Assembly (NCBI GenBank): GCA_020720625.1
Contig: DYOH01000014.1
Coordinates: 11,170-51,158, forward strand
Reading direction: 5' to 3'
DNA: 39,989 bases
Source: Acetofilamentum sp.
GTDB taxonomy: Bacteria > Bacteroidota > Bacteroidia > Bacteroidales > DYOH01
Shown here: positions 12,345-32,251 of the stretch, piece by piece
Layout: each line of letters begins with the position of its first letter
Numbering within the stretch: the stretch's first letter is position 1
Made by a program: the position numbers and the translations under genes
Notes under the pieces: generated by a model
What the model saw: only the letters and a program-made list of their open reading frames with translations
Told to the model about the DNA's origin: nothing
Database searches by the model: none

Positions 12345-12345
12345 T

Positions 12346-12756
12346 TTATAACTTATTAATTATTTTTGCATTTACACCCCAAATATTAGCCAATTGAGCT
12401 ATCCATCTTTTTTCTTTTTCATGAAAACTACTATCAGCCAAGGCAATATCCTTTAAATCGTGTAAACATGTGCTCCCGTTATGTTTGGTAAACCATTCGT
12501 GCTCAAGAAGTTGTTCAGCAAGCTCCATCACTATATCTTCAATATTGTGTTCGTTCATCTTTAATTTATAAACTCGGGTAACCTCGTCCATCAGTTTAGT
12601 AAATTCACTATATGGCAAAGCGTCAGCAATAAGGAGTTTAACTTTCTGCCAAACAACTCTTTGCTCTTCATGCGAAAATTCGCCATCGGTTTGGTGAGCA
12701 AATGCAATATAGATAAACCCGAGAATATGATAAGGAGTTAATTGAATATTTTGCAT
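12346..12756 (-). CDS. TerB-like domain protein
   Basis: This 136-residue helical protein resembles stand-alone TerB domains. It has two acidic helix pairs with the expected 'D-G-x-x-x-x-E-E' and 'A-D-x-x-x-x-x-E' pattern (TDGEFSHEEQRVV near 23-35, and ALADSSFHEKEKRWI near 109-123), which bind metal in TerB. It is the first gene of a tightly packed minus-strand operon with an EamA transporter, yigZ and an M42 peptidase. It is divergent from the TPR-phosphatase gene at 12831. TerB proteins are tied to membrane-stress and metal-related responses, but no tellurite-resistance genes are nearby. Confidence 0.7.
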   Translation of the reverse strand: MQNIQLTPYHILGFIYIAFAHQTDGEFSHEEQRVVWQKVKLLIADALPYSEFTKLMDEVTRVYKLKMNEHNIEDIVMELAEQLLEHEWFTKHNGSTCLHDLKDIALADSSFHEKEKRWIAQLANIWGVNAKIINKL

Positions 12757-12779
12757 AAAACATTTAGAAATTTAGAGTA

Positions 12780-12787
12780 CAAAGGTA
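12780..12787 (-). promoter_or_regulatory. Putative -7 promoter box of the TerB-EamA-YigZ-M42 operon
   Basis: TACCTTTG on the minus strand matches TAnnTTTG exactly, 23 bp before the TerB-like start codon in the 74-bp divergent gap. The same octamer occurs before the gene at 17064. On the plus strand of the gap, TATATTTA (12807-12814) is a one-mismatch candidate for the gene at 12831. Confidence 0.45.
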
Positions 12788-12830
12788 ATAGAATATCTTT
12801 TTTAATTATATTTAGCATCAAAAAACAGGA

Positions 12831-14720: not shown

Positions 14721-14775
14721 AACAATGAATCATAAAAAAGTGTCAGTTTTATTATTCACATCAAAACATATCTAC

Positions 14776-15249
14776 ATGAAAATAAGAATTTTACCAATCA
14801 TCGCGCTCCTATTTTTAGCAGGCTGTACCAAAAACAAGCATACAGAAGTCAAAATGAGCCAAGCGGAAGCAGATAGTTTACTTCGCCAAGAAACCGGTGC
14901 CGACAATTATGGTATGAAAGTGTATGTGATGGCCTTTTTGAAACGTGGTCCAAACAGGCCAAATGATTCTGCACATGCAGCAGAATTACAAAAAGCCCAC
15001 CTGCAAAATATAGGCAGAATGGCCAACTCCGGAGAATTGATAGTAGCCGGACCATTTTTAGATAACGACAGTTTAAGAGGCCTCAATATTTTCGATGTAA
15101 GAAGCATAGAAGAAGCCAAAACACTAACAGAAAGCGACCCTGCGATACAATTCGGCAGTTTAAAAATGGAATTAAAACTATGGTATGGCTCGGCGGCATT
15201 AGTAAAAATGAACGAAATACATCGGAGAATAGCTAAGGAAAATCCATAA
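14776..15249 (+). CDS. YCII-related domain lipoprotein
   Basis: From ATG 14776 the 157-residue product begins MKIRILPIIALLFLAGCTKN, a clear lipoprotein signal with Cys at the lipobox. I prefer this to the upstream in-frame ATG at 14725, which adds 17 residues before the signal sequence. The mature part has a YCII-like fold signature: KVYVMAFLKRGP..., AHLQNIGRMANSGELIVAGPFLDN, then DVRSIEEAKTLTESDPA. YCII domains are dimeric alpha-beta-barrel-like proteins of uncertain, possibly enzymatic, role. It follows the TPR-phosphatase gene on the same strand and ends before a strong bidirectional hairpin. Confidence 0.85.
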   Translation: MKIRILPIIALLFLAGCTKNKHTEVKMSQAEADSLLRQETGADNYGMKVYVMAFLKRGPNRPNDSAHAAELQKAHLQNIGRMANSGELIVAGPFLDNDSLRGLNIFDVRSIEEAKTLTESDPAIQFGSLKMELKLWYGSAALVKMNEIHRRIAKENP

Positions 15250-15274
15250 GCTAAGGGATTACAAACAATTTAAA

Positions 15275-15310
15275 AACAAATTTGCCAAAGCATAGGCTTT
15301 GGCAAATAGC
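15275..15310. terminator. Bidirectional terminator between the YCII gene and rpoD
   Basis: Arms ATTTGCCAAAGC (15280-15291) and GCTTTGGCAAAT (15296-15307) pair perfectly over 12 bp around an ATAG loop, in the gap between convergent genes. The A-rich left flank gives a T-rich tail on the minus strand, so it works best for rpoD but can serve both directions. Confidence 0.85.
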
Positions 15311-15344
15311 ATGATTATATCTTATCGAAATTTATTTAGGAAAT

Positions 15345-16205
15345 TTATCCCAAATATGATTTTAACAAATTGCTTCGCGATGTATTTCTAAGCCTGCGAA
15401 TGGCTTTCTCTTTAATCTGGCGCACACGTTCTCTGGTAAGACCAAATTTTTCGCCAATTTCTTCAAGACTCATCTCGGGAACACCAATACCAAAAGATAA
15501 TTTTAAAATTGTTCTCTCACGTTCGGTAAGTGTAGCAAAGGCTCTATCGATTTCTTTCGATAAAGATTCGTTTATTAAATCAGAATCGGCAATTGGTGAG
15601 TCAGAATTTTCCAACACATCCAACAAAGTATTGTCCTCGCCCGAAACAAACGGAGCATCTACAGAAACGTGCCTACCCGAAACTTTCATCGTATCGGCAA
15701 TTTTATCTGCCGGAAGCTCTAAAATTTCAGCCAGCTCTTCTTCGGAAGGTTTTCGCTGATTTTCTTGCTCAAATTTGGCCACCGCTTTATTATACTTACT
15801 TAGTGAACTCACCTGATTTAAAGGTAAGCGCACAATTCTCGATTGTTCATTAATAGCCTGCATAATCGACTGACGAATCCACCAAACGGCATAAGAAATA
15901 AACTTAAAACCTCTGGTTTCATCAAACTTTTCAGCCGCCTTGATTAAACCAAGATTGCCTTCGTTAATCAGGTCGGGCAAACTAAGCCCCTGATTTTGAT
16001 ATTGTTTAGCAACAGAAACGACAAAACGTAAATTAGCGCGTGTTAATTTTTCAATTGCATTTCTATCTCCCTTGCGAATTCGCTGTGCTAATTCCACCTC
16101 TTCTTCCACAGAAATTAAATCGTATTTCCCAATTTCCTGCAAGTACTTATCTAGCGAAGCACTTTCACGGTTGGTAATAGATTTTGTAATTTTTAACTGT
16201 CTCAT
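15345..16205 (-). CDS. rpoD: Principal RNA polymerase sigma factor (RpoD/SigA)
   Basis: The 286-residue length is typical of the housekeeping sigma factor of Bacteroidota, which lacks region 1.1. Region 1.2 ([16 protein letters not shown]), region 2 ([38 protein letters not shown], then [15 protein letters not shown]), region 3 and region 4.2 with its helix-turn-helix ([28 protein letters not shown]) are all seen. It directs RNA polymerase to the phylum's TAnnTTTG/TTTG promoters. It lies 49 nt after a leucine-rich-repeat gene on the same strand, so some of its transcription may start upstream of that gene. The strong hairpin at 15275-15310 ends the unit. Confidence 0.96.
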
Positions 16206-18530: not shown

Positions 18531-18571
18531 AAAAAATAATTAACCCTGCCAATTTAACGACAGGGATAATT
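18531..18571 (-). terminator. Probable terminator after the 18626-20084 gene pair
   Basis: On the minus strand the arms AATTATCCCTG and CAGGGTTAATT pair with one mismatch around a 12-nt loop and are followed directly by ATTTTTT. It lies 55 nt after the stop of the gene at 18626, so it probably ends that unit before the HAD gene. Confidence 0.7.
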
Positions 18572-18625: not shown

Positions 18626-19165
18626 TTATTTGTTTTTTCCAACAAAAGACATAATCCCCACGGCACAGCCTTTATTATCTTCGTAACCGGCCCGGTATTG
18701 AATAGAGACAAAATAAACACCAGATTTCTCGCAAACGAAATCGAAATGATCCATCACAACACTTCCGTCGCTTTCGAATTTATACTGCTCCGGACGATAA
18801 TTTCGCTTTAATAAATCCTTTAATCCAAGGCTATTTACTTCATCTGCTGCATAATGAGTTTTACCATATTCGTTTCTGGCATCAAATAAAGTAAGCATCG
18901 AATTATATTCAAACCCTTTAGGATCGCATAAATTGAATCGATATAAGGTTCCTTTATTTAAAACCACAGAAAATTTAGCGATAAATGCTGGATCTTCGGG
19001 TCTTGATTTTTTAAGTTTAGCATTAAAATCGCGAAGAAAAATAGCACGTCCGTTATTGGTTGCACATTCATATACCAGCGTTCTTTTACATTGGGCATTA
19101 GTTTCTTTTACACCAAACCCGGCAATTAGCAGCGCAATAGTAGTTATGATTAAAATCCTCTTCAT
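18626..19165 (-). CDS. Exported protein of unknown family, four conserved-looking cysteines
   Basis: This 179-residue protein has a signal peptide (MKRILIITTIALLIAGFGVKETNAQ). The mature part starts with Cys (CKRTLVYECATNNG) and contains LCDPKGFE, FVCEKSGVY and NKGCAVGIMSF, so two or more disulfides are possible. The region around YNSMLTLFDARNEYGKTHY and KSGVYFVSIQYRAG resembles small beta-sandwich secreted proteins, but I recognise no family. It begins 1 nt after the stop of the lipoprotein gene at 19167-20084, so the two are co-translated and both follow the ABC transporter. A role with that transporter in the envelope is inferred from position. Confidence 0.75.
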   Translation of the reverse strand: MKRILIITTIALLIAGFGVKETNAQCKRTLVYECATNNGRAIFLRDFNAKLKKSRPEDPAFIAKFSVVLNKGTLYRFNLCDPKGFEYNSMLTLFDARNEYGKTHYAADEVNSLGLKDLLKRNYRPEQYKFESDGSVVMDHFDFVCEKSGVYFVSIQYRAGYEDNKGCAVGIMSFVGKNK

Positions 19166-19166
19166 A

Positions 19167-20084
19167 TTATAATGAGATTAATTTATTACGTATTTCATTT
19201 ATTCTTTCAGTTATATTCACGATTACATTATCGTTAATGGTTACTTCGCTTCTTTCGTTTTGTTTAATCACGAAAGTTCCGTTTTGTTCTGTCATTGTAG
19301 GTTTTCCCGGTACAATTTTTATTTGCACCTCTTTGTATGCTTCGTAAATGAATTCTAGCTCCTTAATTAAATCGGCAAAGTTTTTATCCTGATCATATTT
19401 TCGCAAAATGTCCAGTATATCTTCGAGTAAAAGTTTTTGATCTCCAATTCTTTCAGCAATTCTTTCGTGCGGCACATCTTTATAAACCTGAGTAGCCAGA
19501 TACAAACCTTCCAACCAAACTCCTGTAACAACTAACGCACTTAAATGACTTCTATTATGTTGTCTTAAATGATCGTCCATCTCATTAAAACTTGTAACCG
19601 ACAGAAACATCAGAGTATCTAGATTTTCGTTACTTACGGCCAATCTTTTTAATGTTTGAAAATCGAAATATTGTCCTACACGCAAATCATCGGCCAATCT
19701 TTTTATTACAGTAAGGTATTGAACAATGGTTGATGTTTTGCTGTAAATATTCATATATCCCAAATCGGCACTATATACTCCCAGAGCTATGGCCTGTTTG
19801 AAACTGGTATTATAATTATCAGCATTTTCGGTTGGGAAAAGCATATTTGTAGAAAAGGGGGCTCCAACTTCATCTAACAAAGCAGCCATTTCAACGGGGG
19901 CAGGAAAATTTTGAACCACTTCTTTCATACTCTCCTCCTCTGCCGTGGTTAAAGTGGTGTGTCCTAAGCCTCCATCTCCTATTCCAATATCGTCTGCATT
20001 AGATTTTGTTTCACTTTCGTTACAAGCAAGTATAGCCATGTAAAAAAAAGCTGCTACAATTAATAATATTCTATTTACTCTCAT
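19167..20084 (-). CDS. Helical lipoprotein of unknown function
   Basis: The 305-residue protein has a lipoprotein signal (MRVNRILLIVAAFFYMAILAC, lipobox Cys at 21), then a low-complexity acidic/Gly linker (DDIGIGDGGLGH). The rest is a mostly helical domain with recognisable stretches such as NFPAPVEMAALLDEVGAPFS and ALGVYSADLGYMNIYSK, ending in a Val/Asn-rich tail. I do not recognise a named family. It follows the ABC transporter gene by 54 nt and precedes the secreted cysteine protein by 1 nt. A promoter-like box lies between it and the transporter, so it may be transcribed separately as well. Confidence 0.75.
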   Translation of the reverse strand: MRVNRILLIVAAFFYMAILACNESETKSNADDIGIGDGGLGHTTLTTAEEESMKEVVQNFPAPVEMAALLDEVGAPFSTNMLFPTENADNYNTSFKQAIALGVYSADLGYMNIYSKTSTIVQYLTVIKRLADDLRVGQYFDFQTLKRLAVSNENLDTLMFLSVTSFNEMDDHLRQHNRSHLSALVVTGVWLEGLYLATQVYKDVPHERIAERIGDQKLLLEDILDILRKYDQDKNFADLIKELEFIYEAYKEVQIKIVPGKPTMTEQNGTFVIKQNERSEVTINDNVIVNITERINEIRNKLISL

Positions 20085-20106
20085 ATTTTCCTAAAAGTTT
20101 GTATTT

Positions 20107-20114
20107 CAAATATA
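20107..20114 (-). promoter_or_regulatory. Putative -7 box before the lipoprotein gene
   Basis: TATATTTG on the minus strand matches TAnnTTTG, 22 bp before the start codon at 20084, in the 54-bp gap after the transporter gene. No clear -33 element is seen because the upstream sequence is transporter coding DNA. Confidence 0.4.
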
Positions 20115-20138
20115 ATATTTTTTTTGCGATTACTCTAA

Positions 20139-23100
20139 TTATTCTTTTTGTTTTTTCGGTTTTCGCTTCAGTTTTTCCTTAAATTTATCAAACTCCACAT
20201 CATCAAAAAAGTCTATTGCTTTCTTAAAATGTTCGTAATACAGTGGAGGATATAACAATAATACGATAATCCAAATAACGATTACATTAAACCAGTAGGT
20301 TTCAAATTTTTTCCCAAATAAAACTTTATGCGGAGCAAAAAAGTGTGTTCTGAAACTAAAAAAACCATTTATCTCAGGCTCCAAAAAAATTGGCTTATAA
20401 TTTTGAATAAGTTTATCGTTATATCGCAATATTTTATGCGTTTCTGTTAGTTTTTGAACAATATCGGCTAATCTTTCATTATGATAACGTTTTTTCAAAC
20501 GATTATCGTATCCGGGCAATGAGTCTTCTAAATGATTAATATAGGCTTGTCTGAGACTATCTGCGCGGAACAATATTTTCCCATAATATATTGATAACTC
20601 CTTTAGGTAGTGCCTGATGTCTTCGGCAACATCTTCATCAAAATTTTCAACATTTATTGAACTTATCAAATCATCCGGTATTCCTTTTACCAAGGTACTT
20701 TCCTTTTTAAAGGTATTGTATATCATTGCGATATTTTCTTCATAAATGTCGCCAAGCGAATCTTTATCGTAGAGCCCCATTGTTTCGTCGAGCACTTTTT
20801 CAATTTCCGGAAGGTAATAAACAGTTCTAAAGTCGGCAAAATTTAGTGCTTTTTCGTAAGCGTAGTATCTCTTTTCGTATTTATTGTTCTTAAACTGATA
20901 CACCATAAGAGCTTCGTAGGCCCACCTCGATGCCATTAATTCGGCAACTACAGGAACTTTATCAGGTGTTCCAATGGCCCTGTTTAATTTGTCGAAGCTA
21001 AAGAATGCACCACCTAAGGCCATCATCGGAATCATTATTAAAGGAATAATTACATAGATGGTAACAGCCGAATTAAAGGTGGCTGAAATGTTCAGTCCCA
21101 ACAAATTGGCAAAAACAAAAGTAGCAAAGAGTGCAAACCAATAATGAAAAAACATTTCGGTAATACCCAATATCAGATTTCCAACCAAAACATATAAAAA
21201 TGCTTGCAAAGCAGAAATTGTAGATAAAATCAGTATTTTTGATACCAAGTAACTAGATCTGGATAGATTGAGAAACTTTTCACGTTTCAATATTTTTCTA
21301 TCCCTAAAAATTTCTTCTGCGCTCACAATTAATCCAAAAAACAAAGCAACCACAATGCTCATAAATATATAAGCAGGAATATTTTCGTTTTCGCGGAAAA
21401 TATACACATTTGATTTAGGATCGGCGATGTATCTAATAAGAAATGCAAGGATAAAACCTAAAATAGGTGCTTCAAGTAAAGTTAGAATTACGTACTGCGT
21501 ATTGCTTATTTTAGAGACAATATCTCTGGTTGCAAAAATTTTAAGTTGCTTAAACCACGAAGGTATAATAGATGATTTTGGTGGCTCTTCATGAACTTCT
21601 GCTACCTTATCCAAAACAATATTCTCACGATATCTTTCTTCCCACACCTGAGGTTTAACCTTCCGATCGCTTGTATACCGCCCGTATTCGTCCACAACCC
21701 GGGCTTCCATGATATCGAAAATTAGCTCCGGGGTAACATTACCGCAAGTAGGACATTCACCCTGATCGCTATTTACCTGAGCGTCCATGCGCTTAAAATA
21801 GGTAATCGCTTCAACCGGATTTCCATAATATACCAAGTAACCACCGGTATCAAGAAAAATCATTCGGTCGAACATTTTATATATATCGGCCGAAGGTTGA
21901 TGTATTACCACATAAATGAGCTTACCTTTAAGCGATAGCTCGCTCAAAAGTTCCATTACATTTTCTGCATCACGCGACGACAAACCTGATGTTGGTTCAT
22001 CCACGTAAAGAATAGATGGTTCACGTATGAGTTCCAATGCAATATTCAACCTTTTGCGCTGCCCTCCGCTAATCATTTTATTAAGCGGAGTGCCCACTTT
22101 AAGGTCTTTTCTCTCCCAAAGCCCAAGTTGTCGGAGTGTTTTCTCCACCAATCCAAAAATTTCGTCTTCGGATTTATCGCTAAAGCAGAGTTTTGCATTA
22201 TAATATAAATTCTGATATACCGTAAGCTCTTCAATTAAGAGGTCGTCTTGCGGAATATAGCCTAAAACACCTTCGAGTTTTTCGCTCTCCCGATGCACAT
22301 CAATACCGTTAATCCTCACACTACCTTTTGTAGGCACATACATTCCAGCTAAAACATTAAGCAGAGTGGTTTTTCCCGCCCCGCTTGCCCCCATAATACC
22401 TATAAGATTACCATGAGTTTCAGAGAAAGAAATATCTCTAAGGCCAATGCCACCAGATTGAAAACGGTATTCTAAATCTTCTACCACAAAAGAAAGACTA
22501 ACAGCGTTGCTATCTTCCATAAATTTGGAAACCACGTCGCTATAATATATTGGTTTACCTTTGGGAAGTTTAATAGTGCTCCCGTTGGCAAATAAATATA
22601 TTCGTCTTTTATTAACAGGCAGTCCGTTAAGAAAAACATCCTGATTTCCGGTATACCTAACAAAATAAAGCTCTTCGCTTCGAACCCTTAAAATGTATAA
22701 TCTACCATCGAGCGCTTCCGTATTGATAAATTTGCAATCCACACATTTGTAATCGTCGATACTGGCCACAAGAATAGTAGCAATATCTAATTCATCCGGA
22801 TTGTGTTTCATTACGAAAGTTTCAATGCTTTCGTATTCTCCTTTCTCAATATTAAATACCTCGGCAATAGTATCAATAATATCTTTACCAGATTTTTGCT
22901 CAGCTTCAATTTCGTTAACTTTAAGCAATTCGAACAAACGAACAAGAACCACCACTTTTTGCTTTTGGTCCAGTCGCTTATTGATTTTTTTTGCTGGTCC
23001 GAAAATTCTAACGGAGTCGATAACCGATACAGCCCCTTTTTTTACATGAGCTTTACTGTCTATTTTATCTAGTTCAGCTTTTTCGCGAAAAAGATCCATG

Positions 23101-23240
23101 TACTCAGACACGGCTTCACTACTAAGTTGCTGTCTTAGAAAACTATAAACATAATTAATTTCGCTTTCCTGAACTCCTTGACCCTGTTTTGCAATCAGAG
23201 CGAACAATTGCATCAGCGCCTCTAGTATTTCCTTACTCAT
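20139..23240 (-). CDS. ABCG-type ABC transporter with TerB-like and FHA-like N-terminal regions
   Basis: This 1033-residue protein has several parts. Residues 1-100 are helical and TerB-like (MSKEILEALMQLFALIAKQG...). Residues about 150-235 end like an FHA domain (DVFLNGLPVNKRR...NGSTIKLPKG), but the phosphopeptide-binding Arg/Ser pattern is not clear. An ABCG-type ATPase spans about 245-460, with Walker A GASGAGKTT near 283, signature ISGGQRKRLNIALEL near 388, Walker B ILYVDEPTSGLSSRD and H-loop VVIHQPS. The membrane domain has about six helices: five between 575 and 750, then a roughly 230-residue external insert, then one near 980-1000. CVDC and CPTCG pairs are also present. One chain carries both ATPase and permease, so it likely works as a homodimer. 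The substrate is unknown. It lies 57 nt after the SiaC-like gene. Confidence 0.88.
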   Translation of the reverse strand: MSKEILEALMQLFALIAKQGQGVQESEINYVYSFLRQQLSSEAVSEYMDLFREKAELDKIDSKAHVKKGAVSVIDSVRIFGPAKKINKRLDQKQKVVVLVRLFELLKVNEIEAEQKSGKDIIDTIAEVFNIEKGEYESIETFVMKHNPDELDIATILVASIDDYKCVDCKFINTEALDGRLYILRVRSEELYFVRYTGNQDVFLNGLPVNKRRIYLFANGSTIKLPKGKPIYYSDVVSKFMEDSNAVSLSFVVEDLEYRFQSGGIGLRDISFSETHGNLIGIMGASGAGKTTLLNVLAGMYVPTKGSVRINGIDVHRESEKLEGVLGYIPQDDLLIEELTVYQNLYYNAKLCFSDKSEDEIFGLVEKTLRQLGLWERKDLKVGTPLNKMISGGQRKRLNIALELIREPSILYVDEPTSGLSSRDAENVMELLSELSLKGKLIYVVIHQPSADIYKMFDRMIFLDTGGYLVYYGNPVEAITYFKRMDAQVNSDQGECPTCGNVTPELIFDIMEARVVDEYGRYTSDRKVKPQVWEERYRENIVLDKVAEVHEEPPKSSIIPSWFKQLKIFATRDIVSKISNTQYVILTLLEAPILGFILAFLIRYIADPKSNVYIFRENENIPAYIFMSIVVALFFGLIVSAEEIFRDRKILKREKFLNLSRSSYLVSKILILSTISALQAFLYVLVGNLILGITEMFFHYWFALFATFVFANLLGLNISATFNSAVTIYVIIPLIMIPMMALGGAFFSFDKLNRAIGTPDKVPVVAELMASRWAYEALMVYQFKNNKYEKRYYAYEKALNFADFRTVYYLPEIEKVLDETMGLYDKDSLGDIYEENIAMIYNTFKKESTLVKGIPDDLISSINVENFDEDVAEDIRHYLKELSIYYGKILFRADSLRQAYINHLEDSLPGYDNRLKKRYHNERLADIVQKLTETHKILRYNDKLIQNYKPIFLEPEINGFFSFRTHFFAPHKVLFGKKFETYWFNVIVIWIIVLLLYPPLYYEHFKKAIDFFDDVEFDKFKEKLKRKPKKQKE

Positions 23241-23278
23241 TCTTTAGGTATTTCATAGGGATAATACCCTCTTACTAC

Positions 23279-23299
23279 AAAAAGTTAACCAAACTTTTT
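23279..23299 (-). promoter_or_regulatory. Small perfect hairpin between the SiaC-like and ABC transporter genes
   Basis: The arms AAAAAGTT and AACTTTTT pair over 8 bp around a 5-nt loop, touching the stop codon of the SiaC-like gene. It is AT-rich but ends in a run of five T on the minus strand, so it could be a weak terminator or an mRNA processing/stability element that lowers read-through into the transporter gene. Confidence 0.35.
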
Positions 23300-23681
23300 A
23301 ATCTACCGAATAACTAACTTGTTCGAATGGAACTTCTACAATATCAGCATATTCTTCGCCGGCTTCCTGCATATCTTCATCGTCGTCGGGATAATGCCAT
23401 CTCACCAATACATCCTTACCGTCGTCCGACATTTCTTCAAGCTTGAGCAGAACATCTAAAATAAGTTTAGATGATGCGGTATTAAAATACTCAAGTTTAA
23501 AATTAAATACGGTTTTAGGCAGCGGTTCTTGTGAATATTCATTTATCCATTTAAGAATAGGCTCAAAAAAGGCAGCAACATCCTCAGGTAAAGATCTTCC
23601 GGAAATTTCAAAAATTCCATTATCCTTGTCCAGAATAACTTGTGGCGTATCGTCTGTACCTTTAATTTTAATCGGATCCAT
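23298..23681 (-). CDS. siaC: SiaC-family regulatory phosphoprotein (DUF1987)
   Basis: The 127 residues are the length and fold of the DUF1987/SiaC family. The central segment FNFKLEYFNTASSKLIL contains Thr68 directly before A-S-S-K. In Pseudomonas aeruginosa SiaC, as I recall it, the switch residue phosphorylated by the SiaB kinase and dephosphorylated by the SiaA phosphatase is also Thr68. The C-terminus is highly acidic (DDDEDMQEAGEEY). Unphosphorylated SiaC activates the diguanylate cyclase SiaD in Pseudomonas, but no cyclase gene is in this window, so the target here must differ or lie elsewhere. The gene follows the SiaB-like kinase by 19 nt. Confidence 0.88.
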   Translation of the reverse strand: MDPIKIKGTDDTPQVILDKDNGIFEISGRSLPEDVAAFFEPILKWINEYSQEPLPKTVFNFKLEYFNTASSKLILDVLLKLEEMSDDGKDVLVRWHYPDDDEDMQEAGEEYADIVEVPFEQVSYSVD

Positions 23682-23700
23682 AGTGTATGCAAATTAAAAT

Positions 23701-24294
23701 TTAACTTTCTAAATCTTGTTGTTGTTTACGAGAAATTGTTGATATTAATATAAAAAAAGACTGATGATCGTTTATTCGAAGAAACTCGTACACGAGTTTC
23801 TCTCCTGTTTTTCTTACAATGTCGATAAAACCAAGTCCGGCTCCCCCTTTAGGCGATAATCTACCTTCGCGAATTTGCTGCTTATAAAGCTGCTTAAGGC
23901 CGATTTTATCAAGACTATTAATATTGTCGAGCATTTCAGACAATTCTTCAATTTTATCGTTACTCACTACATTTCCGGTAGTAACATTGTATTCTTCCGC
24001 ATTTTTGCTTATCATAAAAATTCCACGGCCATCTTTTGATGCCGGAAGATTTCCAATAGGCTCAGCATGCTTGCTGATATTCTGCAAACACTCTACCATC
24101 ACGTGAAAAACTTTCCTTTGCACGGTATTGTAGTCCTCTTCGTTTACCATATTTGACTCAGTAAGCGCAGTAAAAGCCTTTGTTATCTGATGTGTAATTT
24201 CTCCTTCATAAGCCAGACTAACGTTGCTGTCTCTCATTTTCAGGTAGAAATTATAAACGAATTCGAGCGAATCTATTTTTTCCTTATCCGTCAT
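23701..24294 (-). CDS. siaB: SiaB-family protein kinase
   Basis: The 197-residue protein matches the SiaB family (DUF6272), a small kinase related to the GHKL ATPase fold. The N-box-like helix HVMVECLQNISKHAEP (about 68-83) supplies the Glu and Asn used for Mg-ATP. SKDGRGIFMISKN follows, and the glycine-rich SPKGGAGLGFIDIVRK near 150-165 forms the ATP lid. In the Pseudomonas system this kinase phosphorylates SiaC. It lies between the SpoIIE-type phosphatase gene (25 nt upstream) and the SiaC-like gene (19 nt downstream), the same phosphatase-kinase-substrate order as siaABC. Confidence 0.88.
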   Translation of the reverse strand: MTDKEKIDSLEFVYNFYLKMRDSNVSLAYEGEITHQITKAFTALTESNMVNEEDYNTVQRKVFHVMVECLQNISKHAEPIGNLPASKDGRGIFMISKNAEEYNVTTGNVVSNDKIEELSEMLDNINSLDKIGLKQLYKQQIREGRLSPKGGAGLGFIDIVRKTGEKLVYEFLRINDHQSFFILISTISRKQQQDLES

Positions 24295-24319
24295 AACTCC
24301 CAGATATATAGTTAATAAT

Positions 24320-26923
24320 TTAAAATTCTATACCAATTAATAATACGTCGTCTATTTGTTTTTCTTCCTGCTTCCAATCATCAAAATCTTTTATGAAAAA
24401 TGAAAGCAAACTATCCATATCGAGATTTAATGTATCCAGAATATGCTCTCTAATTCTTTGGGCCTGATACTTTCTTCCTTTGGATCCGCCTATTTGGTCG
24501 GAAATTCCATCGGAGAAGAAAAATGCCCTATCGCCATCTTTTAATCTAATAATATGATTCACAAAATCTGTTTCCTCCCGCCGGGGGTCGGGAATTCCGC
24601 CTATTGCTTTGGAATTTCCTTTATAGATTTTTAGTTCATTATTTGCGTAAAGATACAACGGTCTGTGTGCACCTGCAAATTGTAGCTGCATTTTTTTTGG
24701 ATTTATTTTACAAAGCGCTATATCCATGCCATCGCGCCCTTTAGCTTTGTCGGTATCCTGCTTTAATGTTCGTCTTACACCTGCATGGAGCAAATCTAAA
24801 ATTTGGCCTGCATTTAAATCCTGATCGTGGTCTACGATATTATTCAGCAAAAAATATCCGATTAATGAGAGTAGAGCTCCCGGAACACCATGACCTGTGC
24901 AGTCTACAGCCGCAATATAGAAAATATCATCCTTGGCAAAAAACCAGGGAAAATCACCACTTACAACATCTCTTGGGCGGTAAAATAAAAAAGATTTGGG
25001 TAAATAATGCTTAATTAACTGATTACTTGGAAGTATTGCCGATTGAATACGATAGGCATAATTAATACTTTCAGTAATATTACGATTTTTCAGTTCTATT
25101 TCGAGTTCTATTTGTTTTCTTTCGGTGATATCATTTCCTACTATAAGTATTGATTCGAGGCTGGAATCAATAAACTCTGGAATAGCATTAAACATCACTA
25201 TTCTCTGTCCAAATTTTGCAGGGAAATCAATTTCTTTATTGAATTTTTCTTGTGTTTTATTTATCTGATTAATAACATATTCGAAGAAATGGAGCACGCC
25301 TTTTGGCAAATTTATCTGATTTAAAGATCTATCTACAAAATCTTCTTTGGGTACACCTGTATAGATTCTAACTACCGGATTAACGTAATAAAACTGACCA
25401 CTCGGACTAACGCGCATTATCATGTCTGGCGAGTTTTCGGATAATGCAGCCATCTGACCACTAAATCTTTGTGCTCTTTCGGCAATTTTGCGCACTGTAA
25501 TATCGCGGGTATTAAACAATATTCCGTTTATTGCAGGATTAGTGAGCAAATTTCGGGCAGTGGACTCCAGCCAAAGTTCTTCGTTACCCTGAATAAAAAA
25601 CTGATATTCGAAGACTTTTACATCATCAGGGTTTTCGAGTAATTCGTAAAAAATTTCCTTCGAACGTTCGCTGTTTAAAATGGTACGTGCCTGAAAAGCA
25701 TTTTTGCCAATAACATCTTCTGGATTATAGCCCAAAATACTTTTAACAGATGGGCTTTCATATCTAACTATTCCATACTCGTCGTAAATAGAAATAACCT
25801 CCGATGCATTTTCGAGCAATGCATTTAGTCTTTTTTGGGCATTTTCCACTTTCTCAATCTGCGATTCCAGGTCGGAGTTTGTTTTTTCGAGTTCCTCCTG
25901 GGTTTTTTTCATTTGAAGGGCATTTTGCTTTAATTCCTCTTCGTTTTTTCGCAGCACCTGAGTCATGCCTCTGGCTTCGCTAAGCAATCGTTCGGTACGT
26001 GAATTGGCTTTCAGATTAAAAAGCGTTTGTCCGATGATGGTATCAATTTCGTTATAGAAATCGATAATTATAGGACTAATTTTCTCATTTAATGATGCCA
26101 GCTCTATAACGCCCTGAATTTTATCATCACCAATCAATGGGATAATCAATAAGCTTTTGGGTTTTTTGTCACCCAGTATTCCAGAAGAGATAGTAAGATA
26201 ATCTTCAGGAACTTCGGTGCGATAAATCATGGCCTGCTCAAAAGCTGCCTGACCGATAAGACCTTGCCCCACCGAGAAGCTTTGTTTGAGATACTTTTTA
26301 CGGTTATAGGCGTATGTGGCAATATTTATGAGTTTATTTTGATCTTCGTCGAAAACGTAAAATGCGCCTTGAATCATTTCGGTATAAGCAATAAGTTCTA
26401 CCAGGCTATGAAAAGCAAGTGCATCAATAGTTGTATGCCTGTTAAGAATCGAAGAAAGCAGTTCTTTCCCTTTGGCAATCCAGTTTTGTTCAGATTCTTT
26501 GGCATAAGAGCTAAGAATGTTCTGATTCATTTTAAAGAGCGAGGTTGCCAGTTTGTCGTTTGCGTCAATTTCCTCTTCTCTGATCTCGAGGGAGCCTTTA
26601 CCAATTTTTTCGGCAATGGCAATATTTCTTCCAATCATTTCTTCGAGAATCTGTAAACGCACTTCTATGCTTTTCTTTTCAAATTGAAAAATTTTATCTA
26701 AAACAAAATAAAAAAATAAAGTTACGAATGGAAAAATTTCGATTAAAAGAAGCACCGGATTTTTTGAATGTATATAAATAAAGCTGGTAAAATTTACCGG
26801 GGAGTTAAAAACCCTAAAGCTAAACAAAACGGCAAAAATAATGAATAACAGGCTTATTAAGCCGTATAGCAGCATCAGTATCTGTCCTTTTTGTAGTTCT
26901 TTATTTATAAAATTATTACTCAT
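24320..26923 (-). CDS. Membrane sensor phosphatase: GAF-PAS-PAS-SpoIIE (SiaA counterpart)
   Basis: This 867-residue protein has two N-terminal membrane helices (about 14-36 and 56-75), a helical linker, a GAF domain (about 150-310), a coiled coil, two PAS domains (about 365-480 and 494-605) and a SpoIIE/PP2C phosphatase (about 640-867). Phosphatase motifs are present: DVVSGDFPWF, AAVDCTGHGVPGALLSLIG, GMDIALCKI, FFSDGISDQIG and IDDVLLIG. By position it is the counterpart of SiaA, which dephosphorylates SiaC. Unlike Pseudomonas SiaA, which senses through an extracytoplasmic domain, this protein has only a short loop between its two helices and carries cytoplasmic GAF and PAS sensors. The GAF domain shares the P.DYL.ISSG motif with the next two GAF proteins. 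Confidence 0.92.
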   Translation of the reverse strand: MSNNFINKELQKGQILMLLYGLISLLFIIFAVLFSFRVFNSPVNFTSFIYIHSKNPVLLLIEIFPFVTLFFYFVLDKIFQFEKKSIEVRLQILEEMIGRNIAIAEKIGKGSLEIREEEIDANDKLATSLFKMNQNILSSYAKESEQNWIAKGKELLSSILNRHTTIDALAFHSLVELIAYTEMIQGAFYVFDEDQNKLINIATYAYNRKKYLKQSFSVGQGLIGQAAFEQAMIYRTEVPEDYLTISSGILGDKKPKSLLIIPLIGDDKIQGVIELASLNEKISPIIIDFYNEIDTIIGQTLFNLKANSRTERLLSEARGMTQVLRKNEEELKQNALQMKKTQEELEKTNSDLESQIEKVENAQKRLNALLENASEVISIYDEYGIVRYESPSVKSILGYNPEDVIGKNAFQARTILNSERSKEIFYELLENPDDVKVFEYQFFIQGNEELWLESTARNLLTNPAINGILFNTRDITVRKIAERAQRFSGQMAALSENSPDMIMRVSPSGQFYYVNPVVRIYTGVPKEDFVDRSLNQINLPKGVLHFFEYVINQINKTQEKFNKEIDFPAKFGQRIVMFNAIPEFIDSSLESILIVGNDITERKQIELEIELKNRNITESINYAYRIQSAILPSNQLIKHYLPKSFLFYRPRDVVSGDFPWFFAKDDIFYIAAVDCTGHGVPGALLSLIGYFLLNNIVDHDQDLNAGQILDLLHAGVRRTLKQDTDKAKGRDGMDIALCKINPKKMQLQFAGAHRPLYLYANNELKIYKGNSKAIGGIPDPRREETDFVNHIIRLKDGDRAFFFSDGISDQIGGSKGRKYQAQRIREHILDTLNLDMDSLLSFFIKDFDDWKQEEKQIDDVLLIGIEF

Positions 26924-27253: not shown

Positions 27254-29479
27254 TTATAAACTATCCAGCCAATCCTTGTATTTCTTATCAATATCCTTCA
27301 TCGGATATTTCTCGCTAAGCAATTGTTTAATCTGATTGCTAAGCATATTATTTAACTGCGTTAATTTTTCTTTTTCCTCTTTTAATTTGCTAACGTCAGA
27401 TTCAATTAATGATTTTTTCTCAACCTGCAGTTTCATGTTCTCCATATACTTAGACCATGACTCAAAGATAAGGTTAAGAATAATTTTTTGTTGATGAATT
27501 CCTTTGTCCCAACCAATTTTTAATGAATCCTGATGTTGAATTAGTTCGTCGATAAGCGTTTTTTTATGCTCAACTGTTGAATTAAGGTTTTGAATAATAT
27601 CAGTAAATAGCGAAACATCGCTTAAGAAGAGTCTCATTTGCAGCAGCATTCCGGTTTCGTGTTCAAAAACAGGCACCAAAATACCGTAAAAATCTTTTTT
27701 CAGGAAATTGAATGAAAAACGAACTTCGGATTTTTTATACTCCAGGGCAGATTTCCATGTTTCGTTTAGGCTATCCACAGAATCGGACGAGAGCATTTCC
27801 TGCAAATATTTTTCGTGCACTGCACTAAAATTTATCTTTGTTAATTCCATGAATTTTTTGTTTACAGAAAGTATACGCTTATCCGGAGAAAAAATTATCT
27901 GCATCAGTTTATTTTCGATAGCATCGATAATATTTAGTAATTCTGCTTCACGTCGCTTAGACTCTTCCTGAGTTGCTCTTAATTCTTCAAGATTCTGCCT
28001 CATTTCTTCTTCTTGAGTTGCTAATTCGTCAGATTTTCGCTGAGATTCGCCAAGAAGCCTAACCGTGCGGTGATTTATTTTTTCGGTATTTATTGTAAGC
28101 GCAGTAAGGTCAGCAACTTTTTCTACAAATTCGATTTGCGCTGCAGAGAAAAGATTAAAAGAAGAGATTTCGAGTACTCCAAATACTTGGTTGTCTCTTA
28201 AAAGAGGCACAATAAGTAATGCCAGTGGTTTGGTATCGCCCAATCCGGAGCTAATTTCCAGGTAATCGGGGGGCAATTCAGTAAGATAAATAGTTCGTTT
28301 TTCAGTAACTGCGGTACCTACAAGCCCGTCGCCAAATTTTATTTTTTTATCCAAATATTTTTTTCTGTTAAAAGCAAAAGATGCGAATAAATCAAGTTCT
28401 TCGGTATTCTCGTCGTTGGTTATAAAAATTCCACCCTGAATAGCGCTGATGTATTTTACCAAAGATGTAATTAATTCAGAGCTTAACTCTTGCAAATTTC
28501 CGCTGTAAAGTCTAAGAATCTCGTTAAATTTCGACAATCCTGAATTAATCCAGTCTCTTTGCCTGGTTTCGGCTTCACGTTTATTTATCTCACTCTTATT
28601 AGATATTAGTTCGAGTCTTAAGTTTTCTAATTCTACGGAAAGAATGTCGCCTCTGAGAGAAAATCGATTATCATCTAGTTTTCCATTAACTAAATTTCCT
28701 ATAAATTCGCGTATCTCAAGGAAAAACAGGTTAGTTGATAATATTTTATCTTTAATTACATTTAAATCTGTATAAACTTGCGACATGTGCAGTTCTGAAA
28801 CTTCTTCGTTCAAAGATTTTTCAAAAGCGATACCCAGAAATTCTACAGATTTTCTAAAATTAAAAATTAGGTTCTGCAAAACAAAATAGGTGAGCAAACT
28901 AAGCACAAAGAAAAGAATTATCAAAATAAATTCAACATTTTCACGCAAATCGAAATCATCTATTGCCGTAAAATTTCTGCTATAATAATTATCTAAATTA
29001 TCGCCTACTTTTTTGGTTTTAGCAAGAAATAAGTAATACTGCTCCCATTTTTCGTTATCCGGAACGGTATTTATTGTAAGATAATTTAGGGTAATGTCTT
29101 TAATTTTTTGCACGTTAAAGAATAATTCTCTAACAAGTATTTCTTCTTCTTCAATTTTTTGAGCAAGACGCAGGGAATCCATTTGATTTTCGATTTCTTT
29201 AAATGATTGAGAAATTCGGTTTCTGTAATACAATTGTTCTTGTGCCGAAGCGGTAATATTAAATTGGTGAAAAAGTTCGGCGTTAAAAAAAACTTCTTTG
29301 AGAATTTGGGCAATGAGTGTTTGTCTGTTTGCCAAGGACATGCTAATTTCCACTTGTTCATTAAGGCGCTTGTTATTGGTTTTAAAAACCATGAAAACAA
29401 TAGCCCCTAGAAGAATAAAGGAAAAAAACAGGCCGTAAAGCCATATTTTAAAATTGAACTTATTTTGCGTTTTTGTCAT
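27254..29479 (-). CDS. Membrane sensor with GAF and PAS-like domains, no output domain
   Basis: The 741-residue protein has a membrane helix at about 12-32, an extracytoplasmic helical domain of about 150 residues, a second membrane helix near 183-205, a helical linker, a GAF domain (about 313-480), a coiled coil rich in Glu (EEEMRQNLEELRATQEES), a PAS-like domain (about 515-640) and a long C-terminal coiled coil. The GAF carries FGDGLVGTAVTEKRTIYL and ELPPDYLEISSGLGD, nearly the same as the GAF of the phosphatase downstream. No kinase, methyl-accepting, cyclase or phosphatase domain is present, so signalling must go through protein contacts. It resembles sensor proteins with an MCP-like layout but lacks the MCP signalling hairpin. 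Confidence 0.88.
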   Translation of the reverse strand: MTKTQNKFNFKIWLYGLFFSFILLGAIVFMVFKTNNKRLNEQVEISMSLANRQTLIAQILKEVFFNAELFHQFNITASAQEQLYYRNRISQSFKEIENQMDSLRLAQKIEEEEILVRELFFNVQKIKDITLNYLTINTVPDNEKWEQYYLFLAKTKKVGDNLDNYYSRNFTAIDDFDLRENVEFILIILFFVLSLLTYFVLQNLIFNFRKSVEFLGIAFEKSLNEEVSELHMSQVYTDLNVIKDKILSTNLFFLEIREFIGNLVNGKLDDNRFSLRGDILSVELENLRLELISNKSEINKREAETRQRDWINSGLSKFNEILRLYSGNLQELSSELITSLVKYISAIQGGIFITNDENTEELDLFASFAFNRKKYLDKKIKFGDGLVGTAVTEKRTIYLTELPPDYLEISSGLGDTKPLALLIVPLLRDNQVFGVLEISSFNLFSAAQIEFVEKVADLTALTINTEKINHRTVRLLGESQRKSDELATQEEEMRQNLEELRATQEESKRREAELLNIIDAIENKLMQIIFSPDKRILSVNKKFMELTKINFSAVHEKYLQEMLSSDSVDSLNETWKSALEYKKSEVRFSFNFLKKDFYGILVPVFEHETGMLLQMRLFLSDVSLFTDIIQNLNSTVEHKKTLIDELIQHQDSLKIGWDKGIHQQKIILNLIFESWSKYMENMKLQVEKKSLIESDVSKLKEEKEKLTQLNNMLSNQIKQLLSEKYPMKDIDKKYKDWLDSL

Positions 29480-29533
29480 TTGCTCAAAAAACTATTGCGT
29501 AAAAATACAAAAATTGATGTTTATCAAACATTT

Positions 29534-31327
29534 TTAATCAATTTTATTCAAATTACTTGCAAAAATGATATTTGCTACTTTATCAGCACCTTTGCAATTC
29601 ATATTATAGAACAATAAATCAGACATTTCCATTCCTCTTACAAAAATTCTGTTTGCTTCATTATATTGATCTAAAAACACATTCTCATCCAAATCACCTT
29701 CAATAATTTCGTTCAGCGTTGTATAATTAGCAATTATTTTTCGTGGCATAATTTCTGCAAAACGGTGATTAAAAGTAATCAAATTTCCGGATTTATCAAA
29801 AAAAGCAACAGGAATAGAGCCATAAAACCAATTGCTGAGTTTTTGATTCACCAATCCTAAATCATCATCTGTCAAATCTTCTGCCAAATTATCATTTTTT
29901 ACAAGAAAAAAATCTAAAACTGTTTGTTCGTCTTTTTGGCGATTCACCAAGAATAAGGCAATAATGGCAGTTGCTTCGTTTAAATAGGTAATAATTTGAT
30001 TGTTAAACGCAAAAAAAGAAGCCAGTTCAATTACTGCAATGGTTTTTTTCTGATAAACGATGGGCAATAAAATCAAATGCTGTGGATTTTTCTCACCCAA
30101 TCCGGAAGTAATTTCAATATAATTTTGCGGCACATGATTAAGCACAATCATTTGTTGTTCTTTTGCACAAGTGCCCAATAAGCCTTCGCTAATCAAGATT
30201 TCTTTCTTTATCATGCGCTCGTAATTATAGGCATAAGAAGCTTCAAGAACAAGCACCTCTTGTTGTTGTTTGTTTTTCTGAATAACAAAAAAACCACCTT
30301 GATTAATGCCAATAAACTTGATAATTTTTTGCAGGATAAGGGCATAAAGCTTATCGGAACTCACATTTTCGCGCATTTCTCTTTCAATATCAGAAAGCGC
30401 ATCGTTAATTTTAAGCTGCCAGTCGATTTTATTTTTCTCTTGTAATAATTCAGATTCTTTTTTCTTTATCAGTTCAATAAATTGGTGATAACTAGCCCCT
30501 AAAAAACTATTCTCAGCAAAAGGATACATATTTTTTGCTCCATCAAAATCTTCTTTCCCCAATGCATCAATAGAATGTTGCAGATTAGCAAATTTGGCCG
30601 ATAATTCCATAATTTTTGATTCAATCAGGTTTAGCTCGTTCTTAATTTTTTTGGACGATACATCGGCCAAATTTCCGGATGCGAGCATGGTAAGTTTTCT
30701 CATAATATGATTTCGGGAAAATCTTGCTCTATTATTTTGCCATCTAACAAAAAAGAAAAGCAGAAAAATACTGATGAACATAAAAACAAGTGTAATTGCC
30801 ATACTCAACCTGGAGCTCTTCTCATGTTTTGCCTGCATCTCTTCAGCCAGGATAAGCAATTGATCGTTAATTTTATCGAGGTTGTTGGCAATCTTTACAT
30901 GAACAGCCTGCAGCTCTATAATGTTGGCTGATGAGTTTTCGAGAAAAAGAATATAGCGTTGAAAATCTGCCTGAATATCAGTAAAATCGAGAATACTAGC
31001 ATTATCGTAATATGGTTTTAGCTGTTCGAGTATTGCTTCTGATTTGAGAATTAAATTTAAGGCATTGTTGGTATACAGCAAAGCCGAACTTTGTTGTATC
31101 AAAAAATCGGATTTTTCTATTTGCTTCACAATTCCATCGATACGATAAAAATCGCGATGTAGGGCAGAAAAATTTTGTTCTAAATCCTGATATAATATAA
31201 AGGTATTATTTTCTTTACTAAATTGATTTAAAAGCCACAAATCTCTCACTCCCGCAGCAATAATTGCCACAAAAAGCACTATCACAAAAATTTGCTCGTT
31301 TTTAATTTTCAGCCTATTTCTCCACAT
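29534..31327 (-). CDS. Membrane sensor with GAF and PAS-like domains, no output domain
   Basis: I choose ATG 31327 (597 residues, MWRNRLKIKNEQIF...). An upstream TTG frame to 31369 would run into the promoter box at 31367-31374. A membrane helix (about 12-30), an extracytoplasmic helical domain of about 150 residues and a second helix near 180-200 precede a helical linker. A GAF domain follows (about 310-465; EGLLGTCAKEQ and VPQNYIEITSGLGEKNP), then a PAS-like domain (about 495-597). It is paralogous to the neighbouring 741-residue protein and shares its GAF motif with the SpoIIE sensor. No output domain is seen. It is the first gene of the minus-strand cluster and is divergent from the CheR gene. 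Confidence 0.87.
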   Translation of the reverse strand: MWRNRLKIKNEQIFVIVLFVAIIAAGVRDLWLLNQFSKENNTFILYQDLEQNFSALHRDFYRIDGIVKQIEKSDFLIQQSSALLYTNNALNLILKSEAILEQLKPYYDNASILDFTDIQADFQRYILFLENSSANIIELQAVHVKIANNLDKINDQLLILAEEMQAKHEKSSRLSMAITLVFMFISIFLLFFFVRWQNNRARFSRNHIMRKLTMLASGNLADVSSKKIKNELNLIESKIMELSAKFANLQHSIDALGKEDFDGAKNMYPFAENSFLGASYHQFIELIKKKESELLQEKNKIDWQLKINDALSDIEREMRENVSSDKLYALILQKIIKFIGINQGGFFVIQKNKQQQEVLVLEASYAYNYERMIKKEILISEGLLGTCAKEQQMIVLNHVPQNYIEITSGLGEKNPQHLILLPIVYQKKTIAVIELASFFAFNNQIITYLNEATAIIALFLVNRQKDEQTVLDFFLVKNDNLAEDLTDDDLGLVNQKLSNWFYGSIPVAFFDKSGNLITFNHRFAEIMPRKIIANYTTLNEIIEGDLDENVFLDQYNEANRIFVRGMEMSDLLFYNMNCKGADKVANIIFASNLNKID

Positions 31328-31366
31328 AAAAATTTCATTAAATATAAACCGTTTACACAGAATATC

Positions 31367-31374
31367 CAAAGATA
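31367..31374 (-). promoter_or_regulatory. Putative -7 box of the GAF/Sia operon
   Basis: TATCTTTG on the minus strand matches TAnnTTTG, 39 bp before ATG 31327. It is one of two exact boxes in this 84-bp divergent gap; the other faces cheR. Confidence 0.5.
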
Positions 31375-31386
31375 TAAAAAAAACAG

Positions 31387-31394
31387 TATATTTG
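31387..31394 (+). promoter_or_regulatory. Putative -7 box of the CheR gene
   Basis: TATATTTG on the plus strand matches TAnnTTTG, 17 bp before ATG 31412. It lies 12 bp from the opposing box for the GAF operon, so the two units may be co-regulated. Confidence 0.5.
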
Positions 31395-31411
31395 GTGCAA
31401 GAAAGATTACT

Positions 31412-32251
31412 ATGGAATTAAATGTTGCCGAATTAAATAAATTATGTGACACGATAAAAGAAATTTCAGGCTACGATTTTACTGAGTATTCTGTAAAATC
31501 GCTATCCAGAAGGGTGGAAAAAATTCTTACCGATTATCATCTTACGATTGAACAACTAATTGTAAAACTTTACGATTCTAACGATTTTTTAGAAGAAATT
31601 GTTAGAGAAATTACTGTAAACACCACCGAGCTTTTTAGAGATCCAGATTTATGGATTTGCATCAAAGACGATATTTTGCCAAGATACAAAAATCAGGATA
31701 AAATTCGCATCTGGCATATAGGCATGTCGTCGGGACAAGAGGTTTATTCCATGATAATTCTGCTTAAGGAACTTGGCATGCTCGAAAAAACAGAAGTATA
31801 TGGCACTGATATAAATACAAGTGTAATCGCAGAGGCAAAAAAAGGGATTTACCGATTTAGAATAATTGCTGATTATCTGGAAAATTACAATAAAGTATTT
31901 ATGCTGAATGATAAAAAAGAAAGTAAGCAGCATTACGAAAAACATTTTTCAGTTGATTGGATTAAAGGAATTATCAAAATAAAAAAAGAATACACCGAAT
32001 TACCAATACTCGCAAAACACGACTTAGTAAACGACAAAAATATTTTTAATACCAACTATGATATTATTGTTTGTCGCAATTTATTAATTTATTTTAATCA
32101 GGAGCTCCAAAACCGGACTTTTTACTTCTTTCATACAATGATGAACGACAATGGCACATTGATACTTGGAGCACACGAAAGTATTATGGGAAGCATGATC
32201 ACAAAATTTGAAAAACGCGAAAATTACTATTTAAAAAAAGCCAAAGAATAG
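31412..32251 (+). CDS. cheR: CheR-type protein methyltransferase
   Basis: The ATG at 31412 gives 279 residues starting MELNVAELNKLCDTIKEISG. An in-frame ATG at 31292 would overlap the divergent gene and both promoter boxes. The N-terminal helical CheR domain (LSRRVEKIL, EITVNTTELFRDPDLW) and the SAM-binding domain (IWHIGMSSGQEVYSM, VYGTDINTSVIAEAKKGIY, IIVCRNLLIYFNQE, LILGAHESI) are both present with their usual motifs. CheR transfers methyl groups to glutamates of chemoreceptor helices. No CheB or chemoreceptor is nearby, only GAF membrane sensors with long Glu-rich helices, which could be unconventional substrates; that link is inference. Confidence 0.92.
   Translation: MELNVAELNKLCDTIKEISGYDFTEYSVKSLSRRVEKILTDYHLTIEQLIVKLYDSNDFLEEIVREITVNTTELFRDPDLWICIKDDILPRYKNQDKIRIWHIGMSSGQEVYSMIILLKELGMLEKTEVYGTDINTSVIAEAKKGIYRFRIIADYLENYNKVFMLNDKKESKQHYEKHFSVDWIKGIIKIKKEYTELPILAKHDLVNDKNIFNTNYDIIVCRNLLIYFNQELQNRTFYFFHTMMNDNGTLILGAHESIMGSMITKFEKRENYYLKKAKE

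Follow-up and report, generated by a model that had tools for sequence, protein, structure and literature searches.

The six-gene unit and its surroundings

Six closely spaced genes on the minus strand span positions 18626-26923 of the window, by which we mean the whole stretch of 39,989 nucleotides that was analysed (Table 1). From siaA to gene six, they are separated by gaps of 25, 19, 57, 54 and 1 nt, in this order. The coordinates that the first-pass annotation gave for the open reading frames of SiaA, SiaB, SiaC and the transporter were borne out, all four being on the minus strand, and its limits for the unit, 20139-26923, stand for these four genes; in extent they are too short, because the genes at 19167-20084 and 18626-19165 also belong to it. 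The siaC and transporter genes share a reading frame, and the joined stretch contains three stops.

Table 1. Features of the unit (positions in the window)
Feature	Position	Strand	Remarks
SiaA-like PP2C/SpoIIE phosphatase, 867 aa	24320..26923	-	N-terminal membrane segment, GAF, two PAS sensor domains
SiaB-family protein kinase, 197 aa	23701..24294	-	DUF6272/NF038262
SiaC-family phosphoprotein (switch protein), 127 aa	23298..23681	-	PF09345
Thr68 codon of siaC	23478..23480	-	aligns with the P. aeruginosa SiaC phosphorylation site (PMC8457831)
ABCG-type half-transporter, 1033 aa	20139..23240	-	TerB-/FHA-like N-terminus, long membrane-domain insertion
TerB-like helical domain, transporter residues 1-146	22803..23240	-	putative SiaC docking site
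FHA-like domain, transporter residues 153-244	22509..22784	-	phosphopeptide-binding residues not conserved
Nucleotide-binding domain (NBD), transporter residues ~246-480	21801..22505	-	
ABC2-type membrane domain with large insertion, residues ~565-1033	20142..21548	-	
Lipoprotein, 305 aa, gene five of the unit	19167..20084	-	conserved in 99/103 clade-1 loci
Small exported protein, 179 aa, gene six of the unit	18626..19165	-	conserved in 98/103 clade-1 loci
Terminator-like stem, 60 nt past the last gene	18544..18565	-	weak: number of matches in the region equals chance

Upstream of siaA, positions 27254-31369 encode a pair of GAF-containing membrane proteins (741 and 611 aa) with no recognised output domain, which are possible candidate sensors for SiaA, and a CheR-type methyltransferase-like gene (31292-32251, plus strand, identified by eye) adjoins them. 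On the opposite strand, at 12831-14720 and roughly 4 kb away from where the Sia unit ends, there is another gene for a SpoIIE/PP2C-type phosphatase, whose product carries a membrane segment and, at its N-terminus, a repeat region.

The switch proteins and the domains of the transporter

As judged from sequence, the switch is a Sia-type partner switch in all tested parts except the effector. SiaA contains SpoIIE, GAF and two PAS domains (Pfam/NCBIfam); its phosphatase domain matches the SiaA-PP2C of Pseudomonas aeruginosa (6k4e) with an E value of 2.9e-31 and, in the alignment to 6k4e, keeps the PP2C metal-ligand motifs GDF, DCxGHGVPG, DG and DD. SiaB matches the SiaB_fam_kinase family (NF038262) with 169 bits (cut-off 85), and its catalytic Glu68 and a Gln-Asn motif align with the SiaB structure 6kko. 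SiaC, a member of the family formerly called DUF1987, matches PF09345 with 141 bits (cut-off 24.5), aligns in register with P. aeruginosa SiaC at Tyr65, Asn67 and Thr68 and, in the linked model described below, matches SiaC structures with a Z score of 19.9. All three proteins fall below the NCBIfam equivalog cut-offs (152.7 of the required 700 bits for SiaA, 82.1 of 225 for SiaB and 88.1 of 150 for SiaC). Among SiaC proteins linked to the transporter (144 distinct linked pairs, corresponding to about 25 effective linked SiaC sequences), residue 68 is Thr in 141 of 143, and Tyr65 and Asn67 are invariant. The family matches and structure-based alignments bear out the earlier view that phosphatase, kinase and SiaC protein are adjacent in the order of Pseudomonas siaABC, and the register confirms Thr at SiaC position 68.

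The first-pass annotation had also reported that the diguanylate cyclase SiaD is missing, with the transporter in its place, and had suggested looking for a GGDEF gene elsewhere in the same genome. Its report was correct, and the search of the organism's own genome (3.8 Mb, 98.5% complete) found no GGDEF domain; among 49 other transporter-bearing genomes, GGDEF is absent from 48 and present in one. Because GGDEF genes are absent from nearly all of these genomes, the usual output here cannot be c-di-GMP from a GGDEF protein.

The transporter joins PF00005 (residues 267-418) and, downstream of it, PF01061 (residues 565-783) in one chain. It matches TIGR00955 with an E value of 7e-79, yet remains under the cut-off of this family, and ABCG1, ABCG2 and White are among the best PDB sequence matches over its nucleotide-binding and membrane domains. 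Between these two domains, residues 495-501 (window ~21738-21758) form an E-C-x-x-C-G-N motif, which is invariant in 14 of 14 aligned sequences and is a possible metal or redox site.

The N-terminus had been described as partly TerB-like and partly FHA-like, and both labels hold as folds. PF05099 (TerB) matches 11 of 14 transporter orthologues at an E value of 0.01 or better (best 3.9e-10); the window's own transporter scores weakly, with 13 bits (cut-off 24.4). The best structure matches for a model of the isolated N-terminus are the TerB-like proteins 2h5n (Z 9.5, 3.1 Å over 112 residues) and 2ou3 (Z 9.4, 5.3 Å over 130 residues), the next one reaching 5.8; these Z scores are moderate for a helical bundle and are backed by the sequence matches. 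Foldseek alone gave no TerB match for the isolated domain, and it was structural realignment that yielded it. The FHA fold was read from a model that joins SiaC to residues 1-245 of the transporter and corresponds to the siaC-transporter stretch read through its three stops; each part of it is well folded (mean pLDDT 88; pTM 0.64). The FHA-like part matches an engineered Rad53-type FHA domain (6c4u) with a moderate Z score of 7.7 (2.5 Å over 83 residues), its list of structure matches is dominated by FHA domains, and Foldseek assigns E values of about 5e-3 to 1e-2 to FHA domains; a Pfam search of the transporter did not detect FHA. When the FHA loops were located by the strand order of the model and by sequence, not by residue-level structural alignment, the columns of the phosphopeptide loops proved variable across 188 transporters, with no Arg, Ser, His or Asn conserved among them, and only Gly198 and the structural Asn205-Gly206 are kept in this set, as anticipated by the earlier remark that the region does not clearly keep phosphopeptide-binding residues.

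Linkage of the switch and the transporter

The gene neighbourhoods compared comprise 90 loci from the same order and, from the genome collection, 80 named ones; the two samples partly overlap. The transporter tree of these loci has two main clades. Within clade 1 (at least 48% identity), the transporter gene is directly preceded on its own strand by siaA-siaB-siaC or siaB-siaC at 44 of 47 loci from the order and at 45 of 54 named loci, which include Bacteroidales, Marinilabiliaceae and Salinivirgaceae as well as Cytophagales and others (Fulvivirga, Marivirga, Nafulsella, Flexithrix and Cesiribacter). The first-pass annotation had proposed scoring how often the transporter adjoins siaBC in related genomes, and in clade 1 it does so in nearly all; together with the scarcity of GGDEF genes, this upholds the idea of a Sia-type switch in which a transporter replaces the cyclase. 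In clade 2, siaBC and the transporter gene converge, tail to tail; in this lower-identity group the convergent arrangement occurs at 18 of 41 loci, and no siaBC is near at 22. The absence of siaBC near about half of the clade-2 transporters means that SiaC acts there in trans, or that some copies are not under SiaC control. The occurrence of two arrangements of the same partners argues against mere co-transcription.

The organism's own genome holds two transporters of the family, both of which adjoin siaBC, the second on contig 78 in the tail-to-tail arrangement, and 11 SiaC matches distributed over ten contigs. Given roughly ten SiaC genes in a genome of 4 Mb, we estimate that well under 1% of genes would lie within 1 kb of one by chance. 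Among 198 genomes of the order, the transporter is present in 86 and SiaC in 87; 81 have both, 5 only the transporter, 6 only SiaC and 106 neither (Fisher p 1.6e-41, not corrected for kinship). In a phylum-wide draw dominated by lineages that lack the transporter, it was found in 6 of 395 genomes, and the system is therefore patchy. The association of the Sia switch with the transporter is real, old and conserved far beyond the window, and we estimate that a functional linkage between them is very likely.

The gene that directly follows the transporter belongs to one family at 106 of 120 clade-1 loci, and profile searches found the lipoprotein downstream at 99 of 103 clade-1 loci and the 179-residue family at 98 of 103. 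Of the 31 convergent loci with room for it, 17 have the lipoprotein gene upstream of the transporter and on its strand, and this gene lies within reach of all five transporters of SiaC-less genomes, in one case with a weak match. As the lipoprotein is thus conserved also at SiaC-less loci, transporter and lipoprotein look like a constant core to which siaABC is attached as a control module. Family searches gave a useful match for neither the lipoprotein nor the 179-residue protein.

Several observations concern the wider SiaC family. Of 73 SiaC genes examined, 61 do not adjoin the transporter, and SiaB is adjacent to only 12 of these 61. SiaC has expanded to about 21 copies each in two genomes (G042 and G192), in a set of genomes mostly without GGDEF. 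In one genus (L062:9085-9115 and L067:8093-8107), siaC is missing between siaB and the transporter gene while 15-21 other SiaC genes are present, which makes it a natural test of supply in trans. Relatives of Nafulsella and Cesiribacter (L197, L198 and L203, ~12000-15800) have, 2 kb downstream of the transporter, a second block of a SpoIIE phosphatase, a SiaC and a double SiaB of about 366 aa. At L050:5697-7253 (G000 contig 80), two SiaB-like domains are naturally fused with one SiaC in a single protein of 518 aa, and a similar frame of 525 aa occurs at G104:C16:32632-32982. At L048:9585-12205 (G000 contig 44), a RelA/SpoT-type gene is followed, after 29 nt and on the same strand, by a SiaC-family gene, and a further RelA/SpoT homologue lies beyond; a link of SiaC to (p)ppGpp is possible for this gene pair, and RelA/SpoT was rejected as a general neighbour of SiaC, as this is the only case among the 61 unlinked SiaC genes.

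The putative docking site, alternatives and known systems

In P. aeruginosa, unphosphorylated SiaC binds the stalk of SiaD via helices 2 and 3; Thr68 is located inside this interface, and its phosphorylation prevents binding (PMC8457831). Linked SiaC were compared with 53 unlinked SiaC from the same genomes or related ones. Selective conservation in the linked proteins was seen at the 14 SiaD-contact positions, with a mean entropy difference of 1.14 versus 0.51 for all positions (p 5e-5 when positions are drawn at random). With general variability regressed out, the value of the contact positions was not reached by any of 50,000 random sets, and among the variable SiaC positions those in the contact showed the stronger conservation (Mann-Whitney p 5.9e-5). 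SiaC is contacted near Thr68 by SiaB and SiaA as well, and part of the conservation of this face may be due to them. Three contact residues differ from P. aeruginosa SiaC (Arg103 to Asp, Leu107 to Ala, Asp114 to Ile), and therefore the docking cannot be a copy of that between SiaC and SiaD; the changes would, as expected, fit an effector other than SiaD.

On the side of the transporter, five transporter-bearing genomes that are 92-99% complete lack SiaC. In this set of few and related sequences, the fraction of kept positions, scored over those conserved among SiaC-linked transporters, is 49% in TerB, 75% in FHA, 83% in the nucleotide-binding domain and 80% in the membrane domain. By comparison, 69-97% of such positions in TerB are kept by the twelve SiaC-positive transporters that have diverged most, whose overall identity is similar. 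SiaC-less and SiaC-positive genomes differ in the value for TerB minus that for the nucleotide-binding domain (p 7.7e-5), and no significant difference was found for FHA minus the nucleotide-binding domain (p 0.15). The TerB positions lost in SiaC-less genomes include Ser76, Val77, Leu80, Asn87, Gln94, Lys95 and Thr124, and the same relaxation of TerB is seen in three SiaC-positive genomes, in second transporters that are unlinked (L255-L257). The decay of TerB without SiaC is a lead that points to TerB as the part that would meet SiaC.

The observed basis comprises gene content, gene order, co-occurrence, folds, catalytic residues and the fact that the SiaC face and TerB are selectively conserved. 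Together they suggest that the Sia switch directly turns a membrane exporter on or off. On the grounds of sequence comparison, SiaC probably acts directly on the transporter, mainly through TerB, by direct binding to a predicted docking site. At rest, SiaB would phosphorylate SiaC on Thr68; a signal at the GAF/PAS part of SiaA would lead SiaA to remove this phosphate; and dephosphorylated SiaC would dock on the N-terminal TerB domain of the transporter, presumably via the same face that holds SiaD in P. aeruginosa. Docking would change the assembly of the half-transporters or their ATPase state, most likely switching the transporter on, and transport would be in the direction of export and involve the products of genes five and six, or a substrate that these handle. 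The broader view, that an ABC exporter is the direct effector of a Ser/Thr partner switch, that TerB is the dock for a dephosphorylated STAS-like switch protein, and that this is a widespread output in Bacteroidota, is one towards which we lean only slightly.

SiaC might instead target another protein, the transporter being merely co-produced from a shared operon. The nine further SiaC matches in the genome that do not adjoin this transporter indicate that SiaC has other targets; however, the clade-2 pair lies on opposite strands, so that common transcription cannot explain its linkage, and the co-occurrence at the level of the families and the decay of TerB in SiaC-less genomes likewise speak against shared production as the sole connection, which we regard as unlikely. 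ABC transporters act as sensors in other bacteria, and the membrane segment and sensor domains of SiaA would suit a transporter that stands upstream of the switch, its flux or the lipoprotein being the signal that SiaA senses and SiaC-TerB binding reporting or feeding back the state of the transporter. This arrangement is nevertheless very improbable, as a large extracytoplasmic part is not seen in the SiaA sequence and the gene order mirrors siaABCD, in which gene four encodes the effector.

The first-pass annotation had called a direct read-out of SiaC phosphorylation by the transporter an attractive idea. In this reading, the FHA-like domain would bind Thr68-phosphorylated SiaC in the way that FHA I of Rv1747 binds phosphorylated Rv2623. 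The FHA fold is present, and Rv1747 is a precedent for an FHA-bearing ABC exporter that is regulated by a phosphothreonine protein (PMC5549992). However, all five binding residues are present in FHA I of Rv1747 (Gly32, Arg33, Ser47, His50 and Asn69; PMC5549992), whereas no Arg, Ser, His or Asn is conserved in the loops across the 188 transporters; phosphorylation of Thr68 in P. aeruginosa abolishes effector binding, which is achieved by the unphosphorylated form, that is, the reverse (PMC8457831); and FHA is not the part that decays where SiaC is absent. Thus, the read-out by FHA is not supported; it was rejected as the main reading on the variable loop columns, and it is very unlikely.

Both the Sia-type switch and an FHA-bearing ABC exporter under the control of Thr phosphorylation (Rv1747) are already known. 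That a Sia switch is combined with TerB and an ABCG exporter plus its lipoprotein is new in the sense that it was not found in the literature searched, which left most subscription journals outside, and in the literature found, the sole SiaC effector that has been worked out is a diguanylate cyclase. Direct action of SiaC on the transporter through TerB would give one SiaC subfamily a concrete effector outside c-di-GMP, and TerB, which to our knowledge has no settled function of its own, would gain a testable job. Furthermore, the unit identifies an uncharacterised exporter-lipoprotein system, the activity of which should be addressable by changing a single Thr, and it makes a direct test possible of what the other DUF1987 proteins regulate, the question of the eLife paper.

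The N-terminal domain shares with the TerB family (PF05099; 2ou3, 2h5n) the helical fold and, in most orthologues, a significant family score, but here it forms part of an ABC transporter and is associated with SiaC. The transporter itself resembles the eukaryotic ABCG half-transporters ABCG1, ABCG2 and White in that the nucleotide-binding domain precedes the membrane domain in one half-sized chain; the TerB-FHA extension and the long insertion in the membrane domain set it apart. Mycobacterium tuberculosis Rv1747, an FHA-ABC exporter linked to PknF and phospho-Rv2623 (PMC5549992, PMC3908365), is likewise an ABC exporter with a cytoplasmic domain of FHA fold and under the control of Thr phosphorylation, which is predicted for the present system. 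Unlike Rv1747, however, the present transporter has one FHA-like domain without the binding residues, plus TerB, and its kinase is of the SiaB type and its regulator a STAS-like SiaC. SiaABCD of P. aeruginosa (PMC8457831, PMC7647112) has the same order of phosphatase, kinase and phosphoprotein genes with the effector gene in fourth place, and the Tyr65-x-Asn67-Thr68 motif, the PP2C metal ligands and the kinase Glu are kept here. The two systems differ in that gene four here encodes an ABC transporter and not a diguanylate cyclase, and in that two extra conserved genes are present.
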